Part shown: positions 6,628-24,700 of the stretch, piece after piece
How the letters are laid out: each line of letters begins with the position of its first letter
Numbering within the stretch: position 1 is the stretch's first letter
NCBI GenBank assembly: GCA_023250955.1
Contig: JAHEZQ010000027.1
Location: 1 to 59,662, forward strand
Source of the DNA: Melioribacter sp.
GTDB lineage: Bacteria; Bacteroidota; Ignavibacteria; Ignavibacteriales; Melioribacteraceae
Direction of reading: 5' to 3'
Length of the DNA: 59,662 nucleotides
Translations under genes and position numbers: made by a program
The notes under the pieces: generated by a model
The model's database searches: none
What the model saw: the letters and a program-made list of their open reading frames with translations, nothing else
What the model was told of the DNA's origin: nothing

Positions 6628-9534
6628 TTAAAATATATTCCAAAAGGCGGAAAGCTGACCTGAAAAGTAACGATAGCTGGAGTTATCACGTGACGTACTT
6701 CCAATGCCTATTCTTCCTGAAAACATTAATTTTTTGATTGGTTGGTATTCAACTTCAATATGTCCTTCAAGAGCAGTCAATGTACTTTGCGGAACTAAAC
6801 CGATTTTTCCGCCTATAGAAACTTTAAGATTTTCTTGTCTATCGAGATCATTATCTAACCAAAAGCAGTGAGATTCAAAATTGCGGGGCGAGTAATAATA
6901 ATCCGACTTAATTTTATAATTTGAGTATGCATATTCATAACCAACAGCGATATTTGGCCAGAAATATTTTCCTACTCTAATGTTGAAATCATTACCGGCA
7001 TTACCATCATTTACTCCAATATATTGAAAGTATAATGAAAGTTTTAATCCCTCTCTGTTCCTGTAAAAAGTGCTGAATTTATATAAAGCTGCATAATAAC
7101 GGTTATCCAATAGATAAGGAGAATTAAGAATCAAAGCAGCATCGGAATTTTGATAAGTTAGACTAAAGCCAATAGTATCCTTTTTTTCGTAACGGAAAGA
7201 TATATCATTATCATCTCGGATATATTTTCCTTGCGCATTACTTGTTCCTAATCCTACACCAAGGCTAAGATTATCTGAAAATCTAAATAAAATAAATCCC
7301 TTTAGAGTAGTAAAGAGTTCATAACCGGTAAAAGTATATTTACTTATTACATCTTGATTGAGACTTGCAGCATTAGCTTTCATTGAGGTGCGATAAAAAG
7401 ATACTCCCAAAGAAAGAAATCTTGAAACACCAAGTTCCATTCGTGCCCCTCCGCCGAACAATCTGAAACTTGCATTGTCTGCGTAATAAGAGGTAGAGGG
7501 ATTAAGTCCAACATAATTAGGGAAAGTTGCAAAGATAGAAGCAATGCCCGTAATAGGCAGCCAACCTTTTTTTTGTTTGATTGCTGCGATCTGTGTAGAA
7601 TCTATATCTTTCCAATCAAGTAAATTGTTATAAACTATCCGTGCGGAATCAGGTTCTCCAAACTTTGCATAAGAATCACCTAGAGTTATGTTCGCATCAT
7701 AATCGGACGAATCTTGTCTTACTAAATCTTTGAATTCATGAATAGTGTTAACTGTATCGTTCATTGCAAAATATAGTTTAGCACGCTGAAGTTGGGCGTC
7801 GTAATTTGGTCCCGCAAAAAGAACTTTATTATAAGTTTCTAGTGCTTTGGGATAATTTTTTGCACAGAAAAGAACATCACCATATTCTTTGATAATTTGA
7901 TTGTTAGGTTCAGCTTTAGATAAAAAATCTTCATAGAATGGAAGAGCGCCAGCACAATCGCCGTCAAGCACATTTTTCCTTCCTTGTTCCAGAATAGCAT
8001 AAAGTTTTTCTTCTTCAAAACGCATTTTCTGCCAATCAATATTTGACTGCAGTTTAGTAACATCATCGTTAGTCGGGTCAATATTTTTTGCTTTATCTGC
8101 TTCTTGCTGGGCACCTTCAAAATCTTTTTCGATCAATTTAACTGAACCCATTGTTACAAGAGCTTGAATGTTATCAGGTCTTGATTTTAAAACATTAGTA
8201 AGATATTGTTTAGCAAGATCTATATCGCGGTTTATCCAGACAGATGTTTGAGCACGGAAAAGTTGATAATCAAGATTGTTTGGAGAATCTTGTAGAAGTT
8301 TATCTGTAATATCAATTGCTTTATCAAACTCCCGGCTCCATGCAGAAATTCTTGCCCATTTAAAACGAAGAGTAGCATCTTTTTCATCCGGATTTTGTTC
8401 AAAATATTGATCAAGCATTACCATAGCACTATCATACTCCGCGAGGTATTCATAATATTCGGCCACCATTTTAATTGCATCTTTATCCGCCGGATTAGTT
8501 AAGAGCCGAGTTTTGGCGTTATCTAAATTTTCTTTATAAGTCTTTGCTCTTGTTTCTGTAACGAATGTCAGTTTCTCTTTATATAGTTCATCATCAGGTC
8601 TTGTTACACCAATAAATTGTAATTGTTGATAAGCTTCTTCAAGTCGGTTAGCTTTTATTAATTCATCAACCAATTTGAAGCGTGTATCAAAGTCGTTCGG
8701 ATTTTTTCTTAAAACGCGGTAGTAACGGTCTATATTATATTCTTTTTCGAATGCGCGAGGACTTTCTTGAGTTACGTATGCTTTGTTTGTTGCCATATCA
8801 AGTCCGTCTTGTGCTTCCTTAAAAAATGGTTTGAAGCCAAGCGCATTTTCGAATGCTTTAATTGATATTTGAAATTTACCAAGCCACAAAGTAAAGTAGC
8901 CGTAACGGCTCCATAATCGCCAATCACCTGGATAGCGGTCTGTAAATTTTTTAAGAATCTTTTCTCCTTTAACAATGCTTCCTGTTTTTGCAAGAATTTC
9001 AGTGTAACGGATTATTTCATCTGGCGATGCATTGTCATCACGGCTTAAATATTTATCATACCATTCTTCAGCCTTATCCCATATCTCCATTAGCTTATAT
9101 GTTTTTCCGATCTCGAGATAATTGAAAGGTTTATTTGGATCTATTGCAATCTCGCGTAAGTGTCCTTCGATTTTTTTGTTAAGTATTGGATACCAGATAT
9201 CAATAAGTCGCTGAAGATTTCTTTCATATTCAGCTCTCTTTGTTGCATCTCTCGTTTCGATTGCAATGGCGCGCCTGTAGTCCAACCTTCCGTATTCATA
9301 CTGCTGGCGTTTTTCAAAACAAGTTGCACGTAAATTATATCCTTCGGATTCCTGAGGTAAAGCAGTGATATATTTGTTCAGTTGATCTATCGCCTCTCCA
9401 TAACGTCCGGCTCTCATGTGAAGGAGAGCAGTGTTCTTGTAAACGTCAACATCTACTTTTTGTTGCTGTGCAAAAGAAATCTGCAAAAGCAAAATTAAAA
9501 TGAGGGTGGACATTTTGGTGCGAGATTGTATCAT
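6628..9534 (-). CDS. TPR repeat protein with C-terminal outer-membrane beta-barrel-like domain
   Basis: 968 residues from ATG 9534. ATG 9513 is also possible, and an upstream TTG at 9567 is less likely because it would displace the signal peptide. Signal peptide with core LILILLLQISFAQQ. Residues about 25-640 are helical TPR-type repeats (recurring A-x-x-Y-D-K, N-P-x-x pairs), including segments such as AEEWYDKYL, GALPFYEDFL and ALETYNKVL. Residues about 680-968 switch to alternating hydrophobic/aromatic strands rich in Y, G, N and S, ending in FSGQLSAFWNIF with a terminal phenylalanine, as expected for an outer-membrane barrel. This resembles the YaiO-type TPR-barrel layout. A role in envelope or polysaccharide export is a family-level guess. 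Precedes the M23 peptidase gene. Confidence 0.72.
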   Translation of the reverse strand: MIQSRTKMSTLILILLLQISFAQQQKVDVDVYKNTALLHMRAGRYGEAIDQLNKYITALPQESEGYNLRATCFEKRQQYEYGRLDYRRAIAIETRDATKRAEYERNLQRLIDIWYPILNKKIEGHLREIAIDPNKPFNYLEIGKTYKLMEIWDKAEEWYDKYLSRDDNASPDEIIRYTEILAKTGSIVKGEKILKKFTDRYPGDWRLWSRYGYFTLWLGKFQISIKAFENALGFKPFFKEAQDGLDMATNKAYVTQESPRAFEKEYNIDRYYRVLRKNPNDFDTRFKLVDELIKANRLEEAYQQLQFIGVTRPDDELYKEKLTFVTETRAKTYKENLDNAKTRLLTNPADKDAIKMVAEYYEYLAEYDSAMVMLDQYFEQNPDEKDATLRFKWARISAWSREFDKAIDITDKLLQDSPNNLDYQLFRAQTSVWINRDIDLAKQYLTNVLKSRPDNIQALVTMGSVKLIEKDFEGAQQEADKAKNIDPTNDDVTKLQSNIDWQKMRFEEEKLYAILEQGRKNVLDGDCAGALPFYEDFLSKAEPNNQIIKEYGDVLFCAKNYPKALETYNKVLFAGPNYDAQLQRAKLYFAMNDTVNTIHEFKDLVRQDSSDYDANITLGDSYAKFGEPDSARIVYNNLLDWKDIDSTQIAAIKQKKGWLPITGIASIFATFPNYVGLNPSTSYYADNASFRLFGGGARMELGVSRFLSLGVSFYRTSMKANAASLNQDVISKYTFTGYELFTTLKGFILFRFSDNLSLGVGLGTSNAQGKYIRDDNDISFRYEKKDTIGFSLTYQNSDAALILNSPYLLDNRYYAALYKFSTFYRNREGLKLSLYFQYIGVNDGNAGNDFNIRVGKYFWPNIAVGYEYAYSNYKIKSDYYYSPRNFESHCFWLDNDLDRQENLKVSIGGKIGLVPQSTLTALEGHIEVEYQPIKKLMFSGRIGIGSTSRDNSSYRYFSGQLSAFWNIF

Positions 9535-9891
9535 ATAAGTATTATTAATAAAAAATAACCCTCTCAAAAGGATTCATGATTATTGATTCACGGGCATTAT
9601 TTCCCGATTCAATTTATCAAAAATTATGCAAAAAGTAACGGACGAATAAAATCTTTGATTCAGCTTTATTTTCTAACAATATTAAAAAATGGAGTAGGTA
9701 TACTTGGTTAAATATGAGACGTAAAATGGACTCAGTCTCATAATGAATATTGGGACTTTATTCTAATTTGCTCGGTATTATTGAATACATCCACCTTACT
9801 TTTATTGTATTTTTAAAAAAAGCTTTGAACATGGACAGCAATTGGTTGATTAGAAAAATAATATTTTGTCATTTTATTAATTGTGGATCAA
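9535..9891. other. Intergenic region with an 8-bp inverted repeat
   Basis: 357 bp between the triple-AAA gene stop and the TPR-barrel gene start. No convincing gene is present; a 63-codon plus-strand reading frame here lacks codon character and runs into the AAA gene. The one clear structure is the inverted repeat TATGAGAC (9713-9720) / GTCTCATA (9735-9742) with a 14-nt spacer. It could be an operator or, on the minus strand where TTT follows, a weak terminator. The promoter for the TPR-barrel gene should lie here, but I could not pick out its boxes. Confidence 0.45.
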
Positions 9892-12800
9892 TCAATTGTT
9901 TACATCTGCAGATGTCAATTGTGTCAATTCTTCAAGAGTAGGATTTAATATTTGAGCTAACCGAGTTTCCTGTTTTGAGATAATATCCAGAAGAATATTT
10001 CTGGCTGTACGGGCATTACCGAAATTTTTATCTCTATTTAAATAGAGTGTTTCGAATTTTTTTATCAACATAGCTTTTGCACCTTCATCAAACTGATATT
10101 TACTTGATTTAGCCATAGCATCAGCAATTGTGAAAAGTTGTTGCGGATTGTAATCTGCAAAATGAAATTTATTATTAAATCTTGAAGTAAGACCAGGATT
10201 TGCTTCAAGAAAAGTTTTCATTTCATTTGTATAACCGGCAGCAATTACAATAAACTTTCCTTTGAAATCTTCCATTCTCTTTAATAATGTATCAATTGCT
10301 TCTTGTCCAAAATCGTTTGAACCTCTGGATAATGTATAAGCCTCATCAATAAATAAGGTACCCCCTAATGCACTTGTAATAACTTGATCTGTTTTAATTG
10401 CAGTTTGCCCAGTGTAACCAGCGACAAGCTGGGCTCTATCGACCTCTACTAGATGCCCTTTTTCTAATATGCCCAATTCCTTAAATATACTACTAAGAAG
10501 TCTTGCAACTGTAGTTTTTCCTGTACCGGGATTACCTGTAAATACGGAGTGAAGTGGTTTCTGAATTACATCCAATCCTTTTTCTTTTCTAAGGTTTGCA
10601 ATCTTTAAACCGTTAACTAGATTTTGTACACCATCTTTAACTTCATCTAGACCGGTTAACCTCTTCAGTTCATCCAGATATTCATTTAATTTTTGATCGT
10701 CACCTTTAATTTTGAATGATGTAACTTTTTCTTTCGGTCCGATCTCTTCAAAATCTTCTTGGGTTAAAACGGATTTTGCTTCGGCCGTCAATTCAGATTT
10801 GTCCATGTTGATTAAACGCATCATATGTTTTTTATTTACGCTATCAAAAAGATTTCTAACAATTCTTGCATTACCGAAATTTTTGTCTCTGGACCTGTAT
10901 ATATCATTAAAATGTTTGAACAAAAGTATTTTGGATTCTTCATTTAATTTCAAGTTATTCTTCTTTGATATGGCTTCAAATATTGTCATCAACTCATCGG
11001 GATTATAATCTTCAAAAAAGAAAGTTTTTGTAAATCTTGATTTCATTCCAGGATTGCTTTCAAGAAAAGATTTCATTTCCTCGGTATATCCGGCAGCAAT
11101 ACAAATAAACTTGCCCCTATCATCTTCCATCCTTTTTAGCAGAGTATCAATAGCTTCTTGACCGAAATCTCCACCGCTGTCTTTCTTTACTAAAGTATAT
11201 GCTTCATCAATAAATAATGTTCCTCCGATAGCACTGTCTATTATGCTTTTAGTCTTTTCGGCAGTTTGGCCGACATAACTAGCAACTAATCCTTGACGGT
11301 CAGCTTCGATTAATTGTCCACTCGGTAAAATTGCAAGTGCTGAATAAATTTTACTTATAATTCTTGCAACCGTTGTTTTACCAGTACCGGGGTTACCAAA
11401 AAACAGTATATGAGATGAAAATTTATTCCTCAGATCTTCGCCAGATGATTTATAATATCTAGCAAGTTTGATTAATTCGTGGACATCATTTTTGACCAAA
11501 GAAAGACCGGTAAGTTTATTGAGTTCCTGAAGGGCTTCATTTAAAAGTTCGTCATTTATTGGGGCATCAAAATGTTTAGTATCATCTTTTGTTTGCAAAA
11601 CTTCTTTTATATCTTCTTCGGTAATTGTCATCAATTTTTCTTTTGATCTTTCATGTTTCGGTAAACTTAAATAACGTTTGCTTAGTTGTATTTTAATATC
11701 ATCATAAATTTTTCTAACAGTTCTAGCATTACCGAAATTTTTATCCCGTTTACGATATAAGTTGACTAATTCTTTTAGTAAAAACACTTCAGCAGAATTC
11801 ATTACCCTGTATTCTTCATCCTTAACCATTCCCTTAAAAATTTCCATTAGTTCTTCGGGTACGTAATCTTCAAAAATAAAATGATGCGTAAACCTGGATT
11901 TCAGGCCTGGGTTAGAGCCAAGAAAGTCATCCATTTCTTTTGGATAACCGGCAGCAATAACAAAAAATTCTCCTTTCCTATCTTCCATTCTTTTTAGAAG
12001 CACATCAATTGCTTCTTGACCAAAATCCGAGGTAGCACCTTTTTTTACAAGTGTATAAGCTTCATCTATAAAAAGAACATTACCAATAGCGCTTTCAATT
12101 ATTTTTTCAGTTTTCTGGGCTGTTTCGCCAACATACTGACCCACAAGAGAGGAACGATCAACTTCAATCACCTCTCCTTTTTCCAGAAGACCCATACCTT
12201 TGAAAATTTTGCCCATTAATCTTGCGACAGTTGTCTTTCCGGTACCAGGATTTCCTAAAAATGTTGCATGAACGGAAACTTGATCTTTAGATTTTAATCC
12301 AAGCTGTTTCCTTTCGCGCATAAACTCTAAATAATCTATCAACTCCTTAACTGTATTCTTAACATTCTTAAGTCCGGTAATTTTATCAAGCTCAGCTAAT
12401 GCATCTGCAATAGAAACTGGTTTACTTTCTTTGGATTCCTTCTTTTTATCTTCTGAAAGCCCCAATGTATTTTCTTTTATAACATTCGACTCACCAACAA
12501 TAAAATGATAATCAAAAATTCTTTCACGATTCAAAAACATGCTTACCGAAGCATTTCCTTTTTGCCAGAATTTATTTTTTTGTAAATACGAATGTTCATT
12601 AATCATCACTGCATCCCAATCAGCAGGTACTTCTAATTCAAATGTAGATTGGTCAACAATATCCTCATCAAGGTACCAAGCAACGAAGCATGAATGTTTT
12701 TTTGTCTCTTTTTGGTAGAAAAGGTTTTTTAATATTGCCTGAAGACTAATGATCGGGACTGCATCATAATTTATCTGTACTAAATTAGATTTCTGCTTTG

Positions 12801-13701
12801 CATCTTTTTCTTTATTATGATCGTATAAACTTAATGATGTTATTTCTGCAAAAGAATTAGGATGTAGTTTTAAATTATCTGACGAACTGGTAACTTCTAA
12901 TTTCGGTTCGACAGAGATTTTTGCTTCCTTTTTCTGATGATATTTATTTATCAAATCTTTTATCACAGCAATCTTTTCGTTATCCTTAAACGCATCTTGC
13001 ATCTTTTCAATTTTATTCTCGACAGCTACATATTGATTTAACTTCAACATTGATTCCAATTCCAGAAAGAGTACTGAATTGTTCTTTAATACAAATTCTT
13101 CTTTCTTCGCAAGTTCTTTTGCTATCAATAATGAAAACCAATATTCCTTTTCTTTGAAAGCTGCCTCGGCAGAATTACAATATTTATTGAATTTGTTCTC
13201 GTCGAGATTTGCTAAATCATTTTTGAATTCACTTAAAGTGCTAAAATATTTTCTTAATGATTTCCATTCAGGGTTAGCATTGTTGTCAATCATAAGAGAT
13301 AATTCAAAAAACTTTCCGGCTTTATCAGATTCACCAATACTTGCAAGAGATTTAGATTTGTTAAGATAAGTCCAAGCTAAGAGTTCTTTCTGTTTACCTT
13401 CAGTCATATTAAAATCATAAATAGATGCTTCAAAATTCGAGAGCCGCATCTGAAGGTAACCGCGATACATTCTAGTAAGTATAGAATCGTTTTGTAATTT
13501 AGATGATAACTCAGTATAGTACATAGCCTTCGGAGTATCTCCATTTTCCAAACATGCCCAAGCGTAGCAAATAGCTGCTTCACTGCTTTCGGGTCGGTGT
13601 TGAATTAATTCCTCGGCAATGGGAAGCGCCATTCTAGCGCGTCCTTTGTGAAGGTGTTCGAAAGCTTCTTGCTGTTTTTGATTTAGATCTTTCTGTTCCA
13701 T
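9892..13701 (-). CDS. Triple CbbX/SpoVK-like AAA+ ATPase with N-terminal TPR region
   Basis: 1269 residues. Residues about 1-260 are TPR-like helices; about 290-410 is a beta-rich segment of unknown type. Three complete CbbX/SpoVK-type AAA+ modules follow, each starting with a Lxxl-TGLxxVKxxV lead-in. Their Walker A motifs (GNPGTGKTT) are at residues 483, 769 and 1056, a repeat of about 286 residues. Each has Walker B (LFIDEAYTL), a pore-loop-like Y-V/T-G-E/Q-T-A, DFGQEAID, and a sensor/arginine-finger region ending SRF. All three sites look catalytically intact. Known relatives (CbbX rubisco activase, SpoVK, EccA) have one or two such domains and remodel protein complexes. Last gene of an eight-gene operon, starting 3 nt after the 85-aa gene. 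The target is unknown; a link to the SiaBC switch is inferred from position. Confidence 0.9.
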   Translation of the reverse strand: MEQKDLNQKQQEAFEHLHKGRARMALPIAEELIQHRPESSEAAICYAWACLENGDTPKAMYYTELSSKLQNDSILTRMYRGYLQMRLSNFEASIYDFNMTEGKQKELLAWTYLNKSKSLASIGESDKAGKFFELSLMIDNNANPEWKSLRKYFSTLSEFKNDLANLDENKFNKYCNSAEAAFKEKEYWFSLLIAKELAKKEEFVLKNNSVLFLELESMLKLNQYVAVENKIEKMQDAFKDNEKIAVIKDLINKYHQKKEAKISVEPKLEVTSSSDNLKLHPNSFAEITSLSLYDHNKEKDAKQKSNLVQINYDAVPIISLQAILKNLFYQKETKKHSCFVAWYLDEDIVDQSTFELEVPADWDAVMINEHSYLQKNKFWQKGNASVSMFLNRERIFDYHFIVGESNVIKENTLGLSEDKKKESKESKPVSIADALAELDKITGLKNVKNTVKELIDYLEFMRERKQLGLKSKDQVSVHATFLGNPGTGKTTVARLMGKIFKGMGLLEKGEVIEVDRSSLVGQYVGETAQKTEKIIESAIGNVLFIDEAYTLVKKGATSDFGQEAIDVLLKRMEDRKGEFFVIAAGYPKEMDDFLGSNPGLKSRFTHHFIFEDYVPEELMEIFKGMVKDEEYRVMNSAEVFLLKELVNLYRKRDKNFGNARTVRKIYDDIKIQLSKRYLSLPKHERSKEKLMTITEEDIKEVLQTKDDTKHFDAPINDELLNEALQELNKLTGLSLVKNDVHELIKLARYYKSSGEDLRNKFSSHILFFGNPGTGKTTVARIISKIYSALAILPSGQLIEADRQGLVASYVGQTAEKTKSIIDSAIGGTLFIDEAYTLVKKDSGGDFGQEAIDTLLKRMEDDRGKFICIAAGYTEEMKSFLESNPGMKSRFTKTFFFEDYNPDELMTIFEAISKKNNLKLNEESKILLFKHFNDIYRSRDKNFGNARIVRNLFDSVNKKHMMRLINMDKSELTAEAKSVLTQEDFEEIGPKEKVTSFKIKGDDQKLNEYLDELKRLTGLDEVKDGVQNLVNGLKIANLRKEKGLDVIQKPLHSVFTGNPGTGKTTVARLLSSIFKELGILEKGHLVEVDRAQLVAGYTGQTAIKTDQVITSALGGTLFIDEAYTLSRGSNDFGQEAIDTLLKRMEDFKGKFIVIAAGYTNEMKTFLEANPGLTSRFNNKFHFADYNPQQLFTIADAMAKSSKYQFDEGAKAMLIKKFETLYLNRDKNFGNARTARNILLDIISKQETRLAQILNPTLEELTQLTSADVNN

Positions 13702-13704
13702 TTT

Positions 13705-13962
13705 TTATTCAAGGCTTCTTAGTGTATCCATTAATTCTTTGTACTTCATTAATTTTTTTTGTGCTTTATCTCCAAGCCGTGCAATTCTTACTGAAGTCTT
13801 CAATAGATTTTCAAAACTTTCAGCTAATTGCATATAAGCGATCATCATAGCTTGTGCCGGCATGTTTTGATTTGCTTTTACCTGATTTGCTTTTTCAAGT
13901 ACGGCAAAGAATTCCGTAAAGATTTGTTCGGTTTCATCCAATTTCTGATTTTGCTCTGACAT
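13705..13962 (-). CDS. Small helical protein between siaC-like and triple-AAA genes
   Basis: 85 residues with no recognised family. Start supported by AGGGA 5-6 nt before ATG 13962. Predicted almost entirely alpha-helical. The C-terminal half (SFENLLKTSVRIARLG, then DKAQKKLMKYKELM) has the look of the signalling-helix segment that often precedes GGDEF or PP2C domains (a pattern like R-x-x-R-x-x-D-x-x-Q-x-x-L). In Pseudomonas, SiaC acts by binding SiaD directly. This free-standing helix could therefore be the SiaC partner or an adaptor to the AAA+ protein, but that is inference. It is 7 nt from the SiaC-like gene and 3 nt from the AAA gene, so co-translation is very likely. Confidence 0.75.
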   Translation of the reverse strand: MSEQNQKLDETEQIFTEFFAVLEKANQVKANQNMPAQAMMIAYMQLAESFENLLKTSVRIARLGDKAQKKLMKYKELMDTLRSLE

Positions 13963-13969
13963 TTGTCCC

Positions 13970-14344
13970 TCACTTCATAATTAAATTAAATGGAAAATTT
14001 ATATCTTCTTTCAATTCTTGACCCATTTCTAAAATGTCTTCATCATTTTCATCATAATACCATTTCAGTTCAACCTCAGCACCTGCATTATGATATGATT
14101 GCAGTCTATCGGCAATATCGGAAATAAATTTGATTGAACTCGAATTAAGATAGTCAAACTTGAGATTGAGAGTAACCTTACCTGTTACCTCAAGCATATA
14201 TTTTATAAGCCAGTCGGTCACTGGTTTAAAAAAATCACTTGTGTTTTCAGGAAAGGATGATCCTTCCAGTACACACTCACCTGAAGAAGCATTAAAATTA
14301 ACACCCAACGTACTTTTGGTTTTTGCTAAAATTAGATTATCCAT
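13970..14344 (-). CDS. siaC: SiaC-family (DUF1987) regulatory phosphoprotein
   Basis: 124 residues, matching the DUF1987/SiaC family in length and layout: an N-terminal strand with TLGVNFNASSGECVLEG (typical opening of the family), S-F-P-E-N, then a long helix and the central strand LNLKFDYLNSSSIKF. The NSSSxK stretch (residues 67-72) lies where SiaC is phosphorylated on a hydroxyl residue in Pseudomonas (T68 in my recollection), so S68-S70 are the likely phosphoacceptors. In the known system a kinase (SiaB) phosphorylates SiaC, a PP2C phosphatase (SiaA) reverses it, and unphosphorylated SiaC activates a diguanylate cyclase. Here it overlaps the SiaB-like gene by 8 bp, while no cyclase is nearby. 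Cytoplasmic. Confidence 0.88.
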   Translation of the reverse strand: MDNLILAKTKSTLGVNFNASSGECVLEGSSFPENTSDFFKPVTDWLIKYMLEVTGKVTLNLKFDYLNSSSIKFISDIADRLQSYHNAGAEVELKWYYDENDEDILEMGQELKEDINFPFNLIMK

Positions 14345-14870
14345 TTTGTACTCCTACATTAATTACAACTTTCATATTTAGTTTTATTAAGTTATTAGTT
14401 TTTTCAAAATTGATTGCGATCGGATTTTTTGTCTTACGGATTATTTCGATAAAGCCGATACCGCCGCCTTTGCTATCAAACTCTTGGTCCGATCGAAGTT
14501 TTTCTTTATACAACCCCTTTAACTCATCTGCGTTAAGAGAGTTTAATTTATTAATTTTTTCCGTGATCTTATCTTGCTGTTCCTCGGATATCAGATTTGT
14601 AGTAAGGATTTCAAAAGTATTTTCAGTTAGAATTACTTTTATTGAGCCATAACCAAATTCTTTTGAATCTTCCATAAGACGTTTTTCAGCTGAGTAAAAA
14701 CCGACATTCTGAATCATTTCGTTTACACAAAAAAAGAACAATTTAAAAACTTTGTGTTCAACGAAGCTTATTAAATCCTTTTCAAATTTTTCGTTTATAT
14801 CAAGAAGGTACTGATGTGAAAAAACACCTTCATACTCGTAAAAATATTTGTATGTACTCAGTTCAGCCAA
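14337..14870 (-). CDS. siaB: SiaB-family protein kinase (GHKL-type, DUF6272)
   Basis: 177 residues. GHKL-like ATP-binding features: an N box with N50-E-M-I-Q-N55 in a helix, and a glycine-rich lid at 133-140 (SKGGGIGF). Length and position before the SiaC gene fit the SiaB family, which phosphorylates SiaC on Ser/Thr in a SpoIIAB-like manner. The start appears to be TTG at 14870, preceded by AGAGAA; there is no usable ATG before residue 52, which would remove the N-terminal core. The stop region overlaps the next gene by 8 bp, indicating translational coupling. 16 nt after the PP2C gene. A low-efficiency TTG start could set kinase level relative to phosphatase. Confidence 0.85.
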   Translation of the reverse strand: MAELSTYKYFYEYEGVFSHQYLLDINEKFEKDLISFVEHKVFKLFFFCVNEMIQNVGFYSAEKRLMEDSKEFGYGSIKVILTENTFEILTTNLISEEQQDKITEKINKLNSLNADELKGLYKEKLRSDQEFDSKGGGIGFIEIIRKTKNPIAINFEKTNNLIKLNMKVVINVGVQNG

Positions 14871-14886
14871 ATTAATTCTCTTAGTA

Positions 14887-16065
14887 TTAAAGATTTATAC
14901 CTATTAAAGAAATATCATCTCTCTGAACTTCATTTCCTTGATGTGATTTCAATTCAGAAATAATAGTACTGTATTTTTCTTTACAGCTATTTGAGTTTAT
15001 TTTATTTAACAACTCCTTAAACCGTTTTGAACCAAATTTCAATCCCTCGCTATTATTTTGATCTATGATACCATCAGTAAATAAATAAAACGAAAAACCG
15101 TCGTCATATTTTATCGTATTTGTTTTATAGTTAATCTGTTTTCTTTTATCTCCGATTGATTTTCTATCGCCATGAATATCAACGAATTGATTATTGTAAA
15201 AATAATAAAACGGTCGGTAGGCGCCTGCGTATGAAATTGTTTTGCTCTTTTCATCAATTACACACAAAGCTAAGTCCATTCCATCAAAGGTCTCTTGATT
15301 AATATCCTTATTTAATTCCGTTATAATACCGGCATTAAGCATATCCAAGATATTTCCAGGATCCAGAATTTTTTTATATGTGATTATTTCATTGAGTAAA
15401 GTATTACCGATCATCGACATCAATGATCCCGGCACACCATGGCCAGTACAATCCACTACAGCAATTATTTTTTTATTTTCAATGTTTTGTGCCCAATAGA
15501 AATCACCGCTTACTATATCTTTCGGCTTAAAGATTAAAAAATGATTTGGAAACATTTTTAAGAGAGTTTCTTCGGCAGGTAAAATTGCGCTTTGAATTTT
15601 TTTAGCATAGTTGATACTGTCCGTTATGTATTTATTTATATTAGTCAATTCGGCATTTTGAATCTGAAGTTTTTCTCTTGCGGTGAGCAAATCCAATTGA
15701 TTTTTTACTCTTGCAAGAACTACCGGCGGACTGATTGGTTTTGGGATAAAATCTACAGCGCCTAATTCAAGTCCTTTCGTTTCATCTTCTACTTCAGATT
15801 TAGCAGTGATGAAAATAACAGGAATATCTTTTGTTTCAGGATTTTCTTTAAGTCTTTTACAAACTTCAAAGCCATCCATTTCAGGCATCATTACGTCAAG
15901 CAGAATTAAATCAGGTTTGTTAGATCCGAAGGCAATTTTTAAAGCTTTTTCACCATTGAGCGCAACCTGTCTTTTGTAATCTGAAAGTATTGAACCTAAT
16001 ATTTCTACATTTTCAGTTGCATCATCAACAATTAAAATTTTTCTGTTTAGTATGTTCTCAATCAT
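14887..16065 (-). CDS. Response regulator with PP2C/SpoIIE-type phosphatase output (SiaA-like role)
   Basis: 392 residues. REC domain at 1-125 with acidic pair D14-D15 and phosphoacceptor D57 (LLDVMMPEMDG), then a coiled linker (about 130-170), then a SpoIIE/PP2C domain to the C terminus. Metal-binding motifs are intact: VSGDFYW and AVVDCTGHGVPGSLMS, plus FTDGIIDQ near the end. Expected to dephosphorylate a Ser/Thr-phosphorylated partner, most plausibly the SiaC-like protein two genes on. Pseudomonas SiaA is a membrane protein with a HAMP domain; here the sensor is replaced by REC, so phosphatase activity is probably set by the operon's histidine kinase. Gaps of 19 and 16 nt to neighbours. 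Confidence 0.93.
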   Translation of the reverse strand: MIENILNRKILIVDDATENVEILGSILSDYKRQVALNGEKALKIAFGSNKPDLILLDVMMPEMDGFEVCKRLKENPETKDIPVIFITAKSEVEDETKGLELGAVDFIPKPISPPVVLARVKNQLDLLTAREKLQIQNAELTNINKYITDSINYAKKIQSAILPAEETLLKMFPNHFLIFKPKDIVSGDFYWAQNIENKKIIAVVDCTGHGVPGSLMSMIGNTLLNEIITYKKILDPGNILDMLNAGIITELNKDINQETFDGMDLALCVIDEKSKTISYAGAYRPFYYFYNNQFVDIHGDRKSIGDKRKQINYKTNTIKYDDGFSFYLFTDGIIDQNNSEGLKFGSKRFKELLNKINSNSCKEKYSTIISELKSHQGNEVQRDDISLIGINL

Positions 16066-16084
16066 ATTTGACCAGTTAGATTTT

Positions 16085-16465
16085 TTATTTATTAAGAATT
16101 TTATTCACTAAATTAATAACTATATCAGCCTCAAAAGGTTTGCGGATATAATCCTCTGCGCCAATTTCAAATCCCTGAACAAAACTTTCAGCATCGGATT
16201 TACCTGTAATAAAAACTACAGGAATATTTTGAATAAGGGGATTAGCTTTAATTCTTTTTGCTACTTCAAATCCATCTATACCGGGCATCATAACATCAAG
16301 AAGAATTAAATCAATGTTGGGATTTAACTCAAGAATTTTTAAAGCTTTCTCGCCATTGAGAGCAACCTTCACTTTATATTTTGAAAGTAGTTCGCCAAGA
16401 ATGGATAGATTCTCCGGAGCATCATCAACGACTAATATTGTTTTGGGTGATATAGAAGTGCTCAT
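16085..16465 (-). CDS. Single-domain response regulator
   Basis: 126 residues, a stand-alone REC domain. Acidic pair D14-D15, phosphoacceptor D57 (LILLDVMMPGIDG), conserved threonine in VVFITGKS and lysine in YIRKPF. No output domain, so it probably acts by protein contact or as a phosphate shuttle or sink. It is closely similar to the N-terminal REC domains of both flanking genes (shared DDxxEN-x-x-ILGxxLxxYK and VALNGxKAL pattern), pointing to local duplication. Good AGAGGAAAT ribosome-binding site before ATG 16465. Sits in the middle of the signalling operon, with gaps of 45 and 19 nt. Confidence 0.92.
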   Translation of the reverse strand: MSTSISPKTILVVDDAPENLSILGELLSKYKVKVALNGEKALKILELNPNIDLILLDVMMPGIDGFEVAKRIKANPLIQNIPVVFITGKSDAESFVQGFEIGAEDYIRKPFEADIVINLVNKILNK

Positions 16466-16510
16466 TTTATTTCCTCTAAATTTTATAAATTCAAAATAGT
16501 GAAGATAGAA

Positions 16511-18118
16511 TTAAATCACCTCATAAAGTAAATCAATCAGTTCCTCTTTACTGCATGGTTTTGGGAGATAATGAGTGCATCCTTCATTAAGAAAATTTTC
16601 CTTGTCTCCTTCAAGAGCAAATGCAGTGTAAGCAATTATAGGAACATCTTTATAGCGCACATCTTTTTTGATTTCTTTTGTTACTTCTATTCCGGAAAGA
16701 CCTTGTCCAAGATTTATATCCATTAATATAGCAGAATATAAATTGGACTTGGTAAGTTTAATTGCATCATCTCCATTTTCAGCAACATCTACATCTCCAA
16801 AATCAGCTAGGTACAATTTTGCAATTTTTATGTTTGTTATTTCATCTTCAACAAGAAGGAGCTTAGGTTTCCACTCTTTGTTTTTTTCGAATACAATATT
16901 GCCAGTTTTGACCGCCGTTAAAATTGTTTTTTCCATTTCAATTTTTTCTTCAAGCTTTGTTCTTACAGGAAATTTAACTGTAAAAGTTGAGCCAATTTTC
17001 AGTTCACTGACTAATTCTATTTTGCCGCGCATAATTTCAACATATTTTTTTACGAGAGATAAACCTAAACCGACACCTTGAAAATTTCTTTTGACCCCCT
17101 CATCAACTTGACGAAATTCTTCGAAAATTAATTGATGCTTTTCTTTCGGAATACCCTGGCCGTTATCAGAAACTTTCATACAGTTATAACTAACTTCTTG
17201 AATTTTATCTTGAAAGATCTCGACGCAAATTTTTCCTTTATTACTGTATTTAATTGCATTACTAACAAGATTATTAAAAACTATTTCAAACATAATTTCG
17301 TCAAGTTTCACATTGAGTTTTGAAAATTCTGTCTTGAAATTAAGTTCAAGGCTTTTCGCATTAGCATTAAACTCATGTCCTTTTAATAAATTTTTTACTT
17401 TCTCTATGATTTCAAATTCATTGTAATGAGCTTTCATCTTGCCTGATTCAATCTTGGATAAATTCAAAACTGAATCGAGCGTATCTTTTAGACGGTGCCC
17501 CGACTCATTTATTGTTTTTGCAAAATCTTTTAGTGTTTCATCCTCTAATTCATTTACTAACACTTCTGAGAATCCTAGAATTCCAGTCATAGGTGTTCTT
17601 AATTCATGACTCATTAGTGCTAGGAAGTGGGATTTTACTCTGCTTGATTCTTCCGCTTTATCTTTTGCTTCGATTAATGCCACAGTTCTTTCTTCAACTT
17701 TTTGTTCTAATTCATTGTTAATATTTTTTAATCTATTTTGAAGGGAGCTGAGAGTTAAGTGAGTATTGATTCTTGATTTTACTTCTTCAATCTGAAATGG
17801 TTTGGTAATATAATCTACTGCCCCTAATTCAAATCCCTTTACCTTATCCGTTACTTCATTCAAAGCAGAAATAAAAATTATGGGTATGTCTTTAGTTGAG
17901 CTATTTTCTTTCAATTGTCTGCAAACCTCGTAACCATCCATCTCAGGCATCATTATATCAAGAAGTATCAAGTCGGGCTTAGGATCAGAAAACGCAATAG
18001 AAAGGGCTTTTGCGCCATTTAAGGCAACTTTAACTTTGTATTCTAATAGATACTCGCCAAGTATTGTGAGGTTTTCAGGAGTATCATCAACCAGCAGAAT
18101 CATTTTGTCTGAAAGCAA
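16511..18118 (-). CDS. Hybrid histidine kinase, REC-HisKA-HATPase-REC
   Basis: 535 residues, no membrane segment. N-terminal REC (1-120) with D54 phosphoacceptor, coiled linker (LEQKVEERTVALIEAKDKAEESSRV in two overlapping parts), HisKA with MSHELRTP H-box near 168, HATPase with KVSDNGQGIP and GVGLGLSLVKKYV boxes, and a C-terminal REC (about 415-535) with LMDINLG phosphoacceptor. Start: TTG at 18118 has an AAGGAAG ribosome-binding site at good spacing, whereas ATG 18103 has none, so TTG is preferred. Follows the hemerythrin gene by 24 nt. Likely phosphorylates its own RECs, the lone REC and perhaps the REC-PP2C protein, making it the probable input to the SiaBC-like switch. The direct sensory partner is unknown. 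Confidence 0.92.
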   Translation of the reverse strand: MLSDKMILLVDDTPENLTILGEYLLEYKVKVALNGAKALSIAFSDPKPDLILLDIMMPEMDGYEVCRQLKENSSTKDIPIIFISALNEVTDKVKGFELGAVDYITKPFQIEEVKSRINTHLTLSSLQNRLKNINNELEQKVEERTVALIEAKDKAEESSRVKSHFLALMSHELRTPMTGILGFSEVLVNELEDETLKDFAKTINESGHRLKDTLDSVLNLSKIESGKMKAHYNEFEIIEKVKNLLKGHEFNANAKSLELNFKTEFSKLNVKLDEIMFEIVFNNLVSNAIKYSNKGKICVEIFQDKIQEVSYNCMKVSDNGQGIPKEKHQLIFEEFRQVDEGVKRNFQGVGLGLSLVKKYVEIMRGKIELVSELKIGSTFTVKFPVRTKLEEKIEMEKTILTAVKTGNIVFEKNKEWKPKLLLVEDEITNIKIAKLYLADFGDVDVAENGDDAIKLTKSNLYSAILMDINLGQGLSGIEVTKEIKKDVRYKDVPIIAYTAFALEGDKENFLNEGCTHYLPKPCSKEELIDLLYEVI

Positions 18119-18142
18119 AATATTCTTCCTTACAGTTTATTT

Positions 18143-18550
18143 TTAATTAACTCCCTTACTGTTTAAGTAAGGACCAAACAATTTGTCTGATCCGATGATA
18201 TGATCATGCAGCCAATCACGTAGAAAATTCATCACATCCAGTGTTAAAACTTTTTCTCCAGAATTATATTTCTTCTGTAGTGCAGCAACCTGTTCAACTA
18301 AATCTTTGTGCTGCTTTTTGTGATGTTCCGATTCCGGATATCCATACTGATCAAAATATTTTTCCTCGGTTGCAAAATGATATAAGGTATATTGAACCAA
18401 ATCATTTAATACTTTCTGCAATACTTCTTTGCCTTTACCAATAATCATTGCATCATGAAGCTCATTAACTAATCCGACCAATTTTTTATGCTGATTATCA
18501 ACTTCCACAACATTTACAACGTAAATGTTCTTCCATTCAACAAGTGCCAT
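18143..18550 (-). CDS. Bacteriohemerythrin
   Basis: 135 residues from ATG 18550, chosen because GGAG lies 8 nt upstream. An in-frame TTG at 18562 is less likely. All expected diiron ligands are present: H21 (DNQHKKL), H58 and E62 (YHFATEE), H77 and H81 (HHKKQH), H117 and D122 (HIIGSD). Such proteins reversibly bind O2 at a non-haem diiron site and serve in oxygen sensing, storage or delivery. First gene of the operon that continues with the hybrid kinase, so an oxygen or redox input to the kinase is a reasonable inference. Cytoplasmic, no signal peptide. Preceded by about 167 nt containing the probable operon promoter. Confidence 0.95.
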   Translation of the reverse strand: MALVEWKNIYVVNVVEVDNQHKKLVGLVNELHDAMIIGKGKEVLQKVLNDLVQYTLYHFATEEKYFDQYGYPESEHHKKQHKDLVEQVAALQKKYNSGEKVLTLDVMNFLRDWLHDHIIGSDKLFGPYLNSKGVN

Positions 18551-18717
18551 TTTTTTCTCCAATTAATTATTTCTTGAATATGAATTATATTATTCTATTA
18601 AAAATGCTAAATCAAAATGTCAACTTAACACCCAACATTCCAGAAAAGCCGGGATTCCTAAATTGCCAAGGAAGTTCAAAATCGTTATTTGTTATGTTAT
18701 AGAATTTAACTTATTCT

Positions 18718-21700
18718 TTATTCGCTCTCTAGTTTGTTCAATTGTATCAATGCTTCATCAAAGTCATAATTTTTGACAGCCTTTTCAATTTCCTTTAATG
18801 TAGCCTTATACGGAGCCACACCAGGTAAATCCAATAATTCATCTATCTTTTTACTCGACTCAAAATCATTATCTTCAATTAATTTTTTTAATTCATTTAA
18901 TAAAGCTTTAAACTTTACTAAATCCAAAACACCGCCTTCATCTTTTTTCTCTTCTTTCTTTCTCGAACTTTTCCACTTAAGTATTTCATCAAGCGCGAGA
19001 TTCAATTTCGATTGAAATTCAACAAAATCAGCATCATCAAATTCCATTTCACCTTTTTTAAGTTTTGCTTCAACTCTTGCTGCAACTTGATTTAGCTCCA
19101 CAGCTCCAAGATTTCCAGCGACTCCTTTTACTGTGTGTGCTAATCTAATTGATAACTCTTGTTCCTTGTTATGTATTGCTGTCTTTATCTGCTCTACTAC
19201 ATTTATATTATTTTCATAAAACTTTTCCAGTAAGCTCAAGTACAGTTTCTTATTGCCGCCTACCCGTACTAATCCATTCTTGGCATCAATATTCTTGAAT
19301 TCCGGTAATGTTTCGTCTGCATCTTTAATAAATTCTTTGGGTTTCGGTAAGTCTTCAATTTTTCTATCCCCCGGTTTAATCCATGTTACTAATGCACCAA
19401 AAACTTCATCTGGATCAATCGGTTTTGTAACAAAATCCATCATTCCTACGCTGAGACATTTTTCTTTTATTCCCACCATAGCGTCAGCTGTCATTGCTAC
19501 TATCGGAAGATCATTATATATAGAATGTTTTCGGATCTCTATTGTTGCTGTATATCCATCCATAATCGGCATTTGAAGATCCATCAATACAATATCATAC
19601 TTTGAGGGAACACCCGAAGCCAAAACTTTTTCCAATGATTCTTTTCCGTTATTTGCAATCTCGACAACTAAGCCGGCTTGTTCAAAAATTTCGGAAGCTA
19701 CTTGCTGATTGATCTCATTATCTTCGGTTAAAAGTATTCGCGCACCTTTTATCTTCTCTAAAGCGTCTTTATGTTTCATTCCTCTTTCTGCCCGGCTGCG
19801 TTTTGTTCTAACCTCTTTACCGAATACTTCCATTATTGTATCAAATAAATGTGAATGAGAAACCGGTTTAATTAAAAATCCTTTGATGCCAATTTTTTTA
19901 GCTTTCTCTGCAACTTCTTCTTTACCAAACGCAGTAACCATTATTATGGTCGGAGTTTTAATTTTATTCTTTTCAAAAATAATTTTAGAAGTTTCAATAC
20001 CATCCATCTTCGGCATCTTCCAATCCATAAGCACTAAATCAAATGGGTGCTTTTTATTATTTACAACTAGACCAATTGCTTCTTCTCCCGATTTTGCAAG
20101 ACTCACTTTAAATGAAAATGTTTCCAACGCTTCTTTCAATATCTCTCTGGCAGTATCGTTATCATCAACAACAAGAACATTTAATCCTCTAAGATCAATA
20201 GTTGGCATATACTCATCACGTTTTTGTTCTTTCTGAACATCAAGTAAAGCTGTAAAGAAGAAAGTGCTTCCTTTTCCGTATTCGCTTTCTAACCATACTT
20301 CTCCGCCCATCAATTCTGTAAGTGATTTTGAAATTGCCAATCCAAGTCCCGTGCCCCCAAATTTTCTCGTTGTTGAGCTATCTGCTTGAGAAAACTTCTG
20401 GAACATTTTTTTCTGTTGTTCCGGAGTTAGCCCTATACCAGTATCTCTTACAGAAAATCTTATCTTTACTTTATCTCCAACTCTTTCATGTATATCTGCA
20501 GCAACAACAATATCTCCCTCTGCGGTGAACTTAACAGCATTACTGCAGTAATTGGTTATTATCTGTCCAATACGTAGTGGATCGCCAACTAAATTTAGCG
20601 GAACATCTTTAGATATGTGAACACTGAATTCAAGACCTTTTTCCTGTGCTTTCTGAGAAACTAGATTTGATACTGTATCCATTACATGTTCAAGGTCTAA
20701 ATCAACATTCTCAATATTCAACTTGCCGGCTTCAATTTTCGAGAAGTCCAATATATCATTGATGATTCCTAATAATGCTTGAGATGAGCGCTCAATCTTT
20801 ACTAAATAATCTAACTGTTTATTATCAAGTTTTGTTTTAAGTGCAAGATGAGATAATCCAATAATAGCGTTCATTGGAGTTCTTATTTCGTGCGACATGG
20901 TTGCAAGAAACTGGCTCTTTGCAACTGTTGCAGCGTCAGCAACCAGCTTGGCTTCCGCCAGCTCTTTTTGTATTCTTTTTAATTCTGTAACGTCCAGCGC
21001 TGCAGCAACTACGCAATCTTCTCCTGAATAGCTTATATAATTGAGGGAAACAACCATAGTACGAATTTCTTTTGTTCCCCATTTATAGTATTGTATTTCG
21101 TTGTTATGCGCTTTACCGCCGCCGGTTCGTAATGCATTCATAACATTTACACGGTCTTCTATGTTAACGTACCAGTCCGCTGTTTTACACTTCATTGTTT
21201 CTTCTAAAGATATTTCATGAAAATCTGCAAGCGCTTGATTTGCCAGAAGCAATTTGCCATCAGATATTCTTGAAACCATTGTCGGCATCGGATTTCCTTC
21301 AACAACAGTCTGAGCTGATTTAACAGCAAGTGCTAGTTCACTCTGAATTTTTTTCATATCAGTAATATCAATTATAGAACCTACAAGACAATCCTCACCG
21401 TTATAGTTAATCGGAATAAATGAAACTAAACAATCACGCAGTTCCCCGGTTTTGTATCGTTTAAAATTTACTTCATAATTAGTTAGTGAGCTTTCCTTTT
21501 GTAGGAGTGAAACCATTTTTAATCTATCTTCAGGGTTTGCATACCACTGACTCGATTTCATATTAGTGAATCCATCCAAACCAACCTGATGGAATTCTGC
21601 CATTGCAGTGTTTACTCTTAATATGGTTCCGTCCGTAACTCTAGTAACTGCTGTTGGTATTGGTAGTGAATCAACAATTCTGTTTGCTGCTTCTTTAGCT

Positions 21701-24700
21701 TTTTCAAGAGCCATTTCTGCAATTTTTTGTTCAGTAATATCCTGAGTTACGCCATACATTTTTAAAGCTTTCCCCGAAGCATCTCTTTCAATTTCTCCAA
21801 TTGCGCGAATCCAAGCGATCTTACCATCAACAGGTCGCTTGTATGCATAAATTGCATCATATCTCGGTAGTTTACCTTCTACTGCCGCTCCATAATTTTC
21901 AAATGTTTTAGCTGCATATTCGGGGTCTCCGGCTTTAACACATTCTGCCCAATGCTCAAACAATTTATAACGATAACCTTTAGCAGGAGGATCGCCAAAT
22001 ATTTTGGCTGCTCTTTCTGATGAAGTGTACCACTCTTGATCTAACAAATCTATTTCCCAGAAACCAGCTTTTGTTAGCTCAAGTGCATTGTCCGATAATT
22101 TACTTATATGTTCTATCTCAAATTCAGCTAATTTTGCTTGAGTTATATCTTGAGTAACACCATCCATATGCATTAAACCATCATCATCATTACGCATAAC
22201 ACCAATTGCATGTATCCAAACGATCTTTTCATCAACGGGTCGTTTGAACGGATAGATAACATCATACCTTTCAATTTTTCCTTCGGCAGTTAATCCGAAT
22301 TGTTCACTAACACTTTTAGCTATTGTATCATCTGCCGAAGCCATAGCATTATACCAGTCAGATAACAGATAACGCTGATCTTCTTTAGGAAACATTCCGA
22401 ATATATTTGTTGCTCGGTCTGATTGATTATAGTACCCGGAATTATCCATTGGTACTTCCCAGAATCCAGCTTTTGTAAGATCAAGTGCACTATCTGAGAG
22501 CATATTAATTTTTGCAATACTCTTTTCAGCTTTTTTGCGTTCTGTTATGTCATGAGTGAATGCAGCTATGTAGTTATTGTTCTCAAACTCAAAATAGGAA
22601 GTGTTAATTTCAACCGGTATCAATACTTCATCAATACTGCAGAGAGTAGACTCGTACGAAACCTTCTCGCCTGATTTTAATCTATCAACAAAAGCATGCC
22701 AGTTTTCACGATCGAAGTTGATATCAAAATACCAGAATGCGCGTCCTACAATTTCTTCTTTATTAAATCCCAGCGATTCATATGCATGAATATTAGTATC
22801 CAATATTTTTCCTGAAACCGGATCAACAAAACAAATACTATCTTTAGCATTATCAATACCATATTGGATCAATTTTAATTTCTTTTCCATTTCTTTTCTT
22901 ACAGAAATATCCTTAAAGATTACAACTGAACCTATTAATTCATCACCTTTCATCAATGGAGTGCTTGAATATTCTACATAAAAACTTGTTCCATCTTTTC
23001 GCCATAGAACTTCATCATCAACTTTTGCTTTTTCACCTAAAGAATAAGATTTAAACATTGGGCAGAATTCGCGAGGATATTTTGATCCATCGTTGTATGA
23101 ATGATGTATAAGTGCATGTATTCCTTTATCCAATATTTCTTCTTCTTTAAATCCAATCATCTCTAAAGCTGCCGGATTTATGAAAGTTGTATTTCCGTTT
23201 ACATCACATCCAAAAATTCCATCGCTAGCGGAGTTAAGGAGGGATTTGCTTTTTTCTTCCGACTCTGCAAGGGCTTTTTCGGCAAGTTTTCTTTCTGTAA
23301 TGTCATTTACAATTGCAGTAAAAAGTCTGGCATTTCTAAGTTTAACTTCACTGATGCCAATTTCGAGAGAAATTAAATTTCCGTTTTTATGTTTGCCGAA
23401 GTTTTCAATTCTTTTATCAATTACTTTTTTCTTACCGGTCTCAAGATAGTTTTTGATATAAGAGTTATGTTTTGAAGCGTGCTCTTCAGGTACTATCAGA
23501 TTAACATTTTTACCCAAAATTTCATTTTCTGAATAACCAAATATTGTTTCAGCTGCTGGGTTGAAAGTTTCAATAATACCATTCTCGTTAATTGTGATTA
23601 TACCATTTGTAGATGCAGCCAGAATAGCATCGGTCTTATTTTTACTCTCAAGAACTTTTACTTCGGTTAGTTTCTGTTCTGTAATATCAAAGCGAATGGA
23701 TAAATATTCAATTGGTTTACCATCTTCACCTAAAATGGGCGCAATGACGGCATCAACCCAAAAGAAAGAACCATCCTTAGCTTTGTTACGAATTTGTCCT
23801 CTCCAAATCTTCCCGTCGGTAATATTTTCCCACATTGTCTTAAAGAATTCTTTTGGATGTAATCCCGAATTGACGATTCTATGATTTTTACCAAGGAGTT
23901 CTTCCTTTGTGAACTGAGATATGCGACAAAACTCGTCATTCACTTCGGTAATATTTCCATCGAGGTTAGCAACAGAAACAATTGCTGAAGTATTCAACGC
24001 TAAATTCTGAGAAGCGAGTTTTGAATTTAATGAGTTAACCTCAGCCAATATTTCATGGAGTGATTTTGTCCTTTCTTCTACTTTTGCTTCCAAAGTTTTA
24101 TTCAGTTCAAGAATTTCTTCTTCAGCATTCTTTCTTTGTGTAATATCTGTATATGTTCCTACAACTCGACATGGATTACCGTTGACATCAATCTCTGCAA
24201 CTATTCCTTTTGCTGTTACCCATATAACATCACCATTTTTCTTGATCATTCTATGATCAAGATCATAATTTTCTTTTGCTTGGACGGAAGCCATTATCTT
24301 GGCCAAAGCATTTTCACGGTCTTCACTATAAATTAACTCTGTACACTTTTCAAAATTTGGCTTAAAATCATTTACATCATAGCCAAGAAGTTGAAACATT
24401 CTATCGCTGAAATAAATTTCTCCAGTATTCAAGAACCAGTCGAAAATGCCATCATTTGCAGCCTGGAAAGCAAATTTGAATCTGTGAGTTATTTCTTTTA
24501 GATCTGCTTCGCTTTTTTGAATCGTTTCAGTCATTTGATTAAATGAGTTGGCTAGCGTACCAATTTCATCTTTAGAAGCTATTTCAACTTTTTGATATTT
24601 CTTATTCTTAGAAAAATTTTGAACTATACTCGTAAAATGCTTAAGGGGGTTGGTAATGCTTCTTGCAATTATCAGTGTAATAACAAAAAGAATCATTATT

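Follow-up and report, generated by a model that had tools for sequence, protein, structure and literature searches.

A SiaABC-like partner switch with a free-standing putative SiaC-docking stalk beside a triple AAA+ protein in Melioribacter

The DNA analyzed here, referred to throughout as the window, is the 59,662-nucleotide (nt) contig JAHEZQ010000027.1 of Melioribacter sp., of the order Ignavibacteriales. Eight genes on its minus strand encode a hemerythrin, a hybrid histidine kinase (REC-HK-REC), a single receiver (REC), a REC-PP2C phosphatase, SiaB, SiaC, an 85-amino-acid protein encoded between siaC and the next gene and named P85 here, and a triple AAA+ protein. A sequence-only reading of the window had described this gene set and proposed that the last two proteins stand in place of the SiaD output of Pseudomonas aeruginosa. 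Coordinates and Pfam and NCBIfam matches bear out the gene set and its domain content, and the proposal itself is supported and strengthened by our analysis, with the physical interaction and an ATP-driven output standing as predictions. The features, together with a kinase gene upstream of the operon, are as follows.

9892-13701, minus strand: AAA+ protein, 1269 amino acids, with TPR (about residues 1-262), beta-sandwich (about 275-405), and three CbbX/SpoVK/EccA-type AAA modules with lids
13705-13962, minus strand: P85, free-standing putative SiaC-docking stalk, 85 amino acids (motif VRIARLGDKAQKKL at 58-71; profile A2; AlphaFold2)
13970-14344, minus strand: SiaC-like phosphoprotein (PF09345, 125.5 bits, cut-off 24.5; alignment to 6kko)
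14337-14870, minus strand: SiaB-like kinase, DUF6272 (NF038262, 106.9 bits, cut-off 85; PF19788)
14887-16065, minus strand: REC-PP2C phosphatase, SiaA counterpart with a receiver domain (Pfam, NCBIfam)
16085-16465, minus strand: single-domain receiver (Pfam)
16511-18118, minus strand: REC-HisKA-HATPase-REC hybrid kinase (Pfam; no further domain found)
18143-18562, minus strand: bacteriohemerythrin (NF033749, 155.5 bits, cut-off 84); TTG start, with an ATG four codons in that moves the end to 18550
18718-25647, minus strand: PDC/Cache-HAMP-multi-PAS-HK-REC-REC-Hpt kinase, 2309 amino acids, upstream of the operon

The last five genes of the operon are spaced by 16, -8, 7, and 3 nt in order of transcription, which agrees with the earlier statement that they lie at most 16 nt apart or overlap. 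The arrangement is not a product of chance, as other genera, and also a second family within the order, have the same gene order.

P85 as a candidate SiaC-docking stalk

No Pfam or NCBIfam family matches P85 above chance. Searched as a single sequence with phmmer against 395 genomes of the phylum, it matches 16 places at an expectation value (E) of ≤0.001, itself included, and 12 of these lie beside a siaC gene. In the distant relatives, the match covers the first ~80 residues of proteins that are ~160 to 360 amino acids long, with a common core of the form Y-x(2-3)-LL-x(3)-[KR]-[IVL]-x-[RK]-[ILVM]-[SG]-D-x-x-Q-x-x-L, with variants. The C-terminal tail of P85, KYKELMDTLR, sits at the point where fused relatives continue into their output domain.

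A cross-output profile of this stalk (A2; 15 rows, all from siaC loci and none from Proteobacteria) aligns in register with the two SiaC-binding motifs mapped in SiaD (7e6g). It pairs EKVARISDRYQ of SiaD with VRIARLGDKAQ of P85 and matches the other motif more weakly. The link to SiaD emerged only with A2, since among PDB sequences P85 as a single query found no match and profile A1 found chance matches only. According to passages of PMC8457831 on the interface, SiaC contacts R74, K77, V78, R80, I81, S82, D83, R84, Y85, Q86, and M88 of SiaD, among others; its Thr68 forms hydrogen bonds with S82 and Q86 and, once phosphorylated, no longer permits binding. P85 has a predicted long helix, and at the positions that contact SiaC in SiaD it carries the motif x-R-[IL]-[SG]-D-x-x-Q. 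AlphaFold2 models it as a short helix (residues 12-30) and a single 49-residue helix (36-84), with a mean predicted local distance difference test (pLDDT) of 88.6 and a predicted template-modeling score (pTM) of 0.64, and this predicted fold is as expected of a stalk. Judged on sequence, P85 appears to be a SiaC-docking stalk like that of SiaD, detached from the cyclase, and binding of SiaC to P85 is strongly suggested. The small protein would then occupy the position of SiaD more literally than had been proposed, corresponding to the stalk part of that protein.

The stalk and SiaC also occur together across genomes. Among 164 genomes of the order, SiaC exceeds the cut-off in 10 (an eleventh, G510, falls below it), and a stalk at E < 1e-8 is present in nine of the 10 and in none of the 154 others; the SiaC of G465 is of another kind, adjoined by neither stalk nor AAA+ gene. 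In the phylum sample of 395 genomes, 21 contain SiaC, and the stalk is found at the same threshold in 16 of these, against one of the remaining 374 (Fisher tests were run). P85 is the only stalk found in its own genome. Weaker A2 matches in the phylum (E of 1e-5 to 0.01) were examined in part: L183, L185, and L187 to L189 read as pyrophosphatase, gyrase A, and OmpA-type proteins and for that reason were not counted as stalks, and the remainder, with two from the order search, were set aside. A scan of the genome contigs with profile A1 returned seven loci, all previously counted, and no further lineage; the viral contigs contained no SiaC relative.

Stalks are attached to a range of other outputs. 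In a Pfam scan of the remaining chain of 10 stalk proteins, two carry GGDEF, two HisKA-HATPase, four an adenylate/guanylate cyclase domain, one SpoIIE, and one no family. Six of the 10 lie beside siaC, and four (L093, L094, L096, and L098) are on contigs without a SiaC match. The family-less protein (L066:9296-9772, 158 amino acids) lies beside siaC and has apparent membrane-spanning segments; it is conceivable that it is a membrane output of SiaC. Class III cyclases and histidine kinases that carry a stalk but whose contigs lack a SiaC match (L093, L094, L095, L096, L098, and L099) are possible SiaC outputs in trans, and the Pfam assignments among them cover L093, L094, L096, and L098.

Plasmids offered a separate test. 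Of 19 plasmid records that match SiaC, eight were read, and A2 was run over all 428 open reading frames of at least 60 amino acids. Seven matches were obtained at E < 0.01 (1.6e-9 to 1e-4), every one of them the first or second gene after siaC. The gene directly after siaC was matched at six of the eight loci, namely all six proteobacterial ones (Variovorax, Caballeronia, Paraburkholderia, Azospirillum, Methylobacterium, and Tistrella); the two Bacteroidota plasmid loci gave no A2 match. On the Azospirillum ramasamyi plasmid (L200:5414-7128), siaC is followed by a stalked histidine kinase and then by a stalked diguanylate cyclase, and one SiaC may drive two outputs there.

The AAA+ protein and its linkage to siaC

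The AAA+ protein has three Pfam AAA and three AAA_lid_6 domains. Every one of the three modules has Walker A, Walker B, GY, and GNAR motifs and so looks able to bind and hydrolyze ATP, and the protein carries the second arginine (sensor 2) of the CbbX/SpoVK/EccA clade. Whole-protein scores, each summed over the three modules, pass the NCBIfam models of SpoVK (782.5 against 423), EccA (675 against 467), and CbbX (652 against 459), and the three cannot all be right. AlphaFold2 models residues 1-424 as a TPR superhelix and a beta-sandwich (pLDDT, 88.3; pTM, 0.62), and a fold search with residues 1-248 returned TPR proteins in general. Foldseek rows for AlkC and AspH (template-modeling score, 0.2 to 0.25) and, for the beta-sandwich, UNC119 (E of ~3e-4 to 7e-4) were weak and not used.

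Within the order, siaC and P85 lie side by side at 11 loci in nine genomes, and at eight of the 11 the AAA+ gene comes next, 0 to 9 nt away (the window, G298, G442:C275, G444, G506, G413, G441, and G180:C1). The SiaC proteins of the 11 loci form one side of a branch (94/91). Likewise, the eight siaC-linked AAA+ proteins form one branch (100/100) among copies from the window's own family under a midpoint root, and members of two families of the order are intermingled in it (G506 with G413), consistent with joint movement of the gene set. Pairwise distances over seven loci correlate at r = 0.90 for SiaC and AAA+, 0.83 for P85 and AAA+, and 0.82 for SiaC and P85, and at 0.26 to 0.54 with PP2C. 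These values come from 21 pairs that are not independent of one another, and G180 is excluded. Comparison of up to six genes downstream of the AAA+ gene at the eight loci reveals no family common to more than two (E of 1e-5), and the conserved block therefore ends with the AAA+ gene. In the window, a gene downstream of the AAA+ gene (6628-9567) encodes a 979-amino-acid TPR protein whose end resembles an outer-membrane beta-barrel; it has no relative among the compared downstream genes of the other seven linked loci. The P85 and AAA+ genes share a reading frame, with TAA AAA before the ATG (13699-13707), probably by chance, because elsewhere among the linked loci, seven in number, the spacing keeps the frame only at G413 and G180:C1.

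The AAA+ family as such is not specific to SiaC, since relatives at E ≤ 1e-30 are found in 133 of the 164 genomes of the order. A second triple-AAA copy in the window's own genome (G000:C36) is 47% identical over its full length. Among 20 unlinked AAA+ loci, where gene names represent our reading of the sequences, 12 have purE- and DUF2807-like neighbors and six have a groEL-like gene that either adjoins or is separated by a single gene, five of them together with a groES-like gene; of the remaining two, one has only an ABC-transporter pair common to many others and one has none of these. The triple-AAA gene stands directly after the groEL-like gene at five loci (L153, L154, L155, L157, and L159) and one gene away at L152, possibly marking a chaperonin-linked AAA+ family.

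A conceivable docking site is suggested by the N terminus. In the linked branch, taken as seven rows without G180, residues 1-150 of the AAA+ protein are 69% identical to one another and 39% identical to the others. The ratio of this region to the rest of the N terminus, 1.85, exceeds that of all 2000 random control sets, each of seven rows sampled from 19 unlinked ones without G232 (maximum, 1.63), which hints that P85 may dock at the TPR part.

A predicted phospho-switch and its probable output

The proteins upstream of P85 correspond to the SiaA/SiaB/SiaC switch. The window SiaC lies below the narrower SiaC equivalog NF038265 (114 bits; cut-off, 150), and its phosphoacceptor position 68 is the serine in YLNSSSIK that aligns with Thr68 of P. 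aeruginosa SiaC (6kko). SiaB matches DUF6272 (PF19788) with 102.7 bits and falls below the SiaB equivalog NF038264 (50 bits; cut-off, 225). The REC-PP2C protein combines REC (94 bits) with SpoIIE (79.7 bits); its PP2C half aligns to residues 395-655 of the SiaA model NF038263 with 212.7 bits, under the whole-protein cut-off of 700, and REC replaces the sensor part. The receiver domains point to histidine-kinase input, and a homologue of the upstream PAS kinase is found at nine of the 10 other siaC-P85 loci (two of them cut by contig ends or short). Hemerythrin is encoded on the same strand at four of the 11 loci, the window included, and oxygen or redox sensing through it could be envisaged. 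REC-PP2C and SiaB are separate at five of the 11 loci and fused at five into a single chain of 564 to 573 amino acids (L062, L112, L114, L115, and L117), so that both opposing switch enzymes reside within one protein; the G180:C1 locus has a 678-amino-acid PP2C protein with a different N terminus.

Taken together, the data suggest a two-component-fed SiaABC partner switch with an AAA+ chaperone as its output, a reading to which we give a probability of roughly 0.6. The PAS-HK-REC-REC-Hpt and REC-HK-REC kinases would set the receiver state of REC-PP2C, and homology to SiaA, SiaB, and SiaC predicts that REC-PP2C and SiaB act in opposite directions on Ser68 of the window SiaC. Dephosphorylated SiaC would bind P85 at VRIARLGDKAQ in the way that SiaC binds the SiaD stalk, and phosphorylation would break the contact. 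P85, as a SiaD stalk without its cyclase, might engage the AAA+ protein through its tail KYKELMDTLR, most likely at the TPR domain, and binding of SiaC to P85 could switch the remodeling of a dedicated substrate on or off. We infer the phosphorylation and the SiaC-P85 binding from homology. Coupling of P85 to the AAA+ protein is moderately supported, and the contact between them, the direction of control, and the substrate are what we infer only.

A number of observations weigh against this reading. At three of the 11 siaC-P85 loci (G180:C4, G440, and G442:C205) there is no AAA+ gene; G180 and G442 hold one at their other siaC-P85 copy, and the P85 tail is lost in G440 and G442:C205 and kept in G180:C4, a post hoc observation on a small sample. 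The linked AAA+ protein of G180:C1 has only two AAA modules, and no siaB was seen beside that siaC-P85 copy. None of 25 siaC loci laid out outside the order has an AAA+ relative labeled near siaC (L069, L072, and L090 are not in the count); conservation of the AAA+ gene beside siaBC, which the sequence-only reading had made a test of its proposal, holds at eight of the 11 siaC-P85 loci within the window's order and is not seen at those 25 loci. Five of the 21 phylum genomes with SiaC show no clear stalk (G109, G045, G049, G146, and G186), and G280 has a stalk with no SiaC found. The co-occurrence counts lean toward association because all 15 A2 rows come from siaC loci, a bias that favors the order count more than the phylum count and of which the single-sequence P85 search and the plasmid test are free. 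The A2-SiaD match is statistically weak (E of 0.021, with a designed coiled coil ranked higher), and the likeness persuades by register rather than by E-value. The phosphosite is serine, not threonine. The evidence for a P85-AAA+ contact consists of gene order and co-inheritance, and the ratio of residues 1-150 to the AAA part, 0.96, is not above the controls (maximum, 0.98). Finally, in the arginine-finger motifs NPGLKSRF, NPGMKSRF, and NPGLTSRF the residue at +4 from the conserved Asn is K, K, and T and that at +6 is R in all three; the preprint PMC10659427, in the part concerned with this clade, places the first arginine finger four residues after that Asn.

Three other readings can be set against the proposed one. 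The AAA+ protein might act on the switch itself rather than serve as its output, stripping SiaC from P85 (or from SiaB) at the expense of ATP, as CbbX strips an inhibitor from Rubisco, with P85 an anchor or decoy that sets the level of free SiaC. The characterized CbbX/SpoVK/EccA members described in sections of PMC10659427 are chaperones for dedicated single targets, no candidate substrate gene is common to more than two loci downstream, and the joint divergence of SiaC, P85, and AAA+ is compatible with either direction. However, nine of the 10 other stalk proteins scanned have the stalk fused to an enzyme domain, which marks it as belonging to an output, and we regard action on the switch as rather unlikely. 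Alternatively, P85 and SiaC could control something else in trans, such as a neighboring kinase or a sigma factor, with the AAA+ gene a co-transcribed passenger. This would account for the three loci where the gene does not adjoin, but in two families of the order siaC-P85 is accompanied by a dedicated AAA+ branch that diverges with it, and the P85 tail has been lost at two of those three loci; a passenger role therefore appears improbable.

The third reading, in which SiaC works as it does in P. aeruginosa and activates a diguanylate cyclase whose gene lies elsewhere, draws on the fact that SiaD is the only characterized SiaC output in the accounts given in parts of PMC8457831 and PMC7647112. 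The window's genome, listed as 100% complete, has a single Pfam GGDEF match, on another contig (G000:C27:14946-15407, L002), so that none lies in the window, as had been stated before, and neither P85 nor the AAA+ protein contains a GGDEF domain by Pfam or NCBIfam. Activation by SiaC of a GGDEF protein elsewhere in the genome was the other outcome that the sequence-only reading had named as counting against its proposal. The one GGDEF-family protein of the genome, of 625 amino acids, lacks a stalk, and its cyclase domain contains nothing like a GGDEF motif; the sole match to the pattern falls at residue 85, a long way upstream of that domain. The SiaD route is for this reason very unlikely here, and this reading is close to refuted. 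The genome may make no cyclic di-GMP (c-di-GMP) by GGDEF enzymes.

Relation to known systems

The wider finding would be a portable SiaC-docking stalk. It could be proposed that SiaC is a general switch whose standard ~80-residue docking stalk has been grafted onto many outputs (c-di-GMP and cAMP/cGMP cyclases, histidine kinases, PP2C phosphatases, and perhaps membrane proteins) and that in Ignavibacteriales the stalk became a free adaptor placing a triple-AAA+ chaperone under phospho-switch control; for this broad proposal we hold the odds to be about even. PMC8457831 (eLife) carries the suggestion that DUF1987 proteins modulate adjacent proteins, and the stalk is a candidate for the element by which they do so. 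Being recognizable in sequence, it would allow SiaC targets to be predicted from a genome alone, and it points to outputs beyond SiaD, namely histidine kinases, class III cyclases, SpoIIE phosphatases, and an AAA+ chaperone. For the AAA+ branch, a testable regulator is offered, and if the reading is true, a bacterial partner switch gates protein remodeling. Searches of the open-licence part of PubMed Central turned up no SiaC system described as having an AAA+, kinase, class III cyclase, or SpoIIE output.

Two further families bear on the comparison. The cyanobacterial slr1658 and slr1659 superfamilies are matched weakly in NCBIfam by the window SiaB (1.3e-7) and SiaC (4e-4), far below the cut-offs. 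The widespread triple-AAA protein of the same order has the same architecture as the siaC-linked one, but its loci lie mostly beside purE/DUF2807-like, ABC-transporter, or groEL genes and not siaC, and it falls outside the linked branch.

With the CbbX/SpoVK/EccA clade, the AAA+ protein shares AAA and lid domains, the GY and GNAR motifs, and a TPR N terminus as in EccA. It differs in having three AAA modules per chain, an N terminus of TPR and beta-sandwich together, and a putative coupling to a partner switch; among the 18 window proteins scanned, no Rubisco, MurG, or T7SS/ESX family was found. With P. aeruginosa SiaABCD, the system shares the SiaB kinase, a SiaC with its phosphosite at position 68, a PP2C antagonist, and a SiaC-docking helix with the motif [KR]-[VI]-x-R-[IL]-[SG]-D-[RK]-x-Q. 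In contrast to SiaABCD, GGDEF is absent, the 85-residue stalk is separate and has one motif where SiaD has two, a receiver replaces the SiaA sensor part in the PP2C protein, the phosphosite is Ser, and the next gene encodes a triple AAA+ protein. Because a GGDEF output was looked for and is absent, the system is SiaABC-like as far as SiaC and is not a SiaABCD system.

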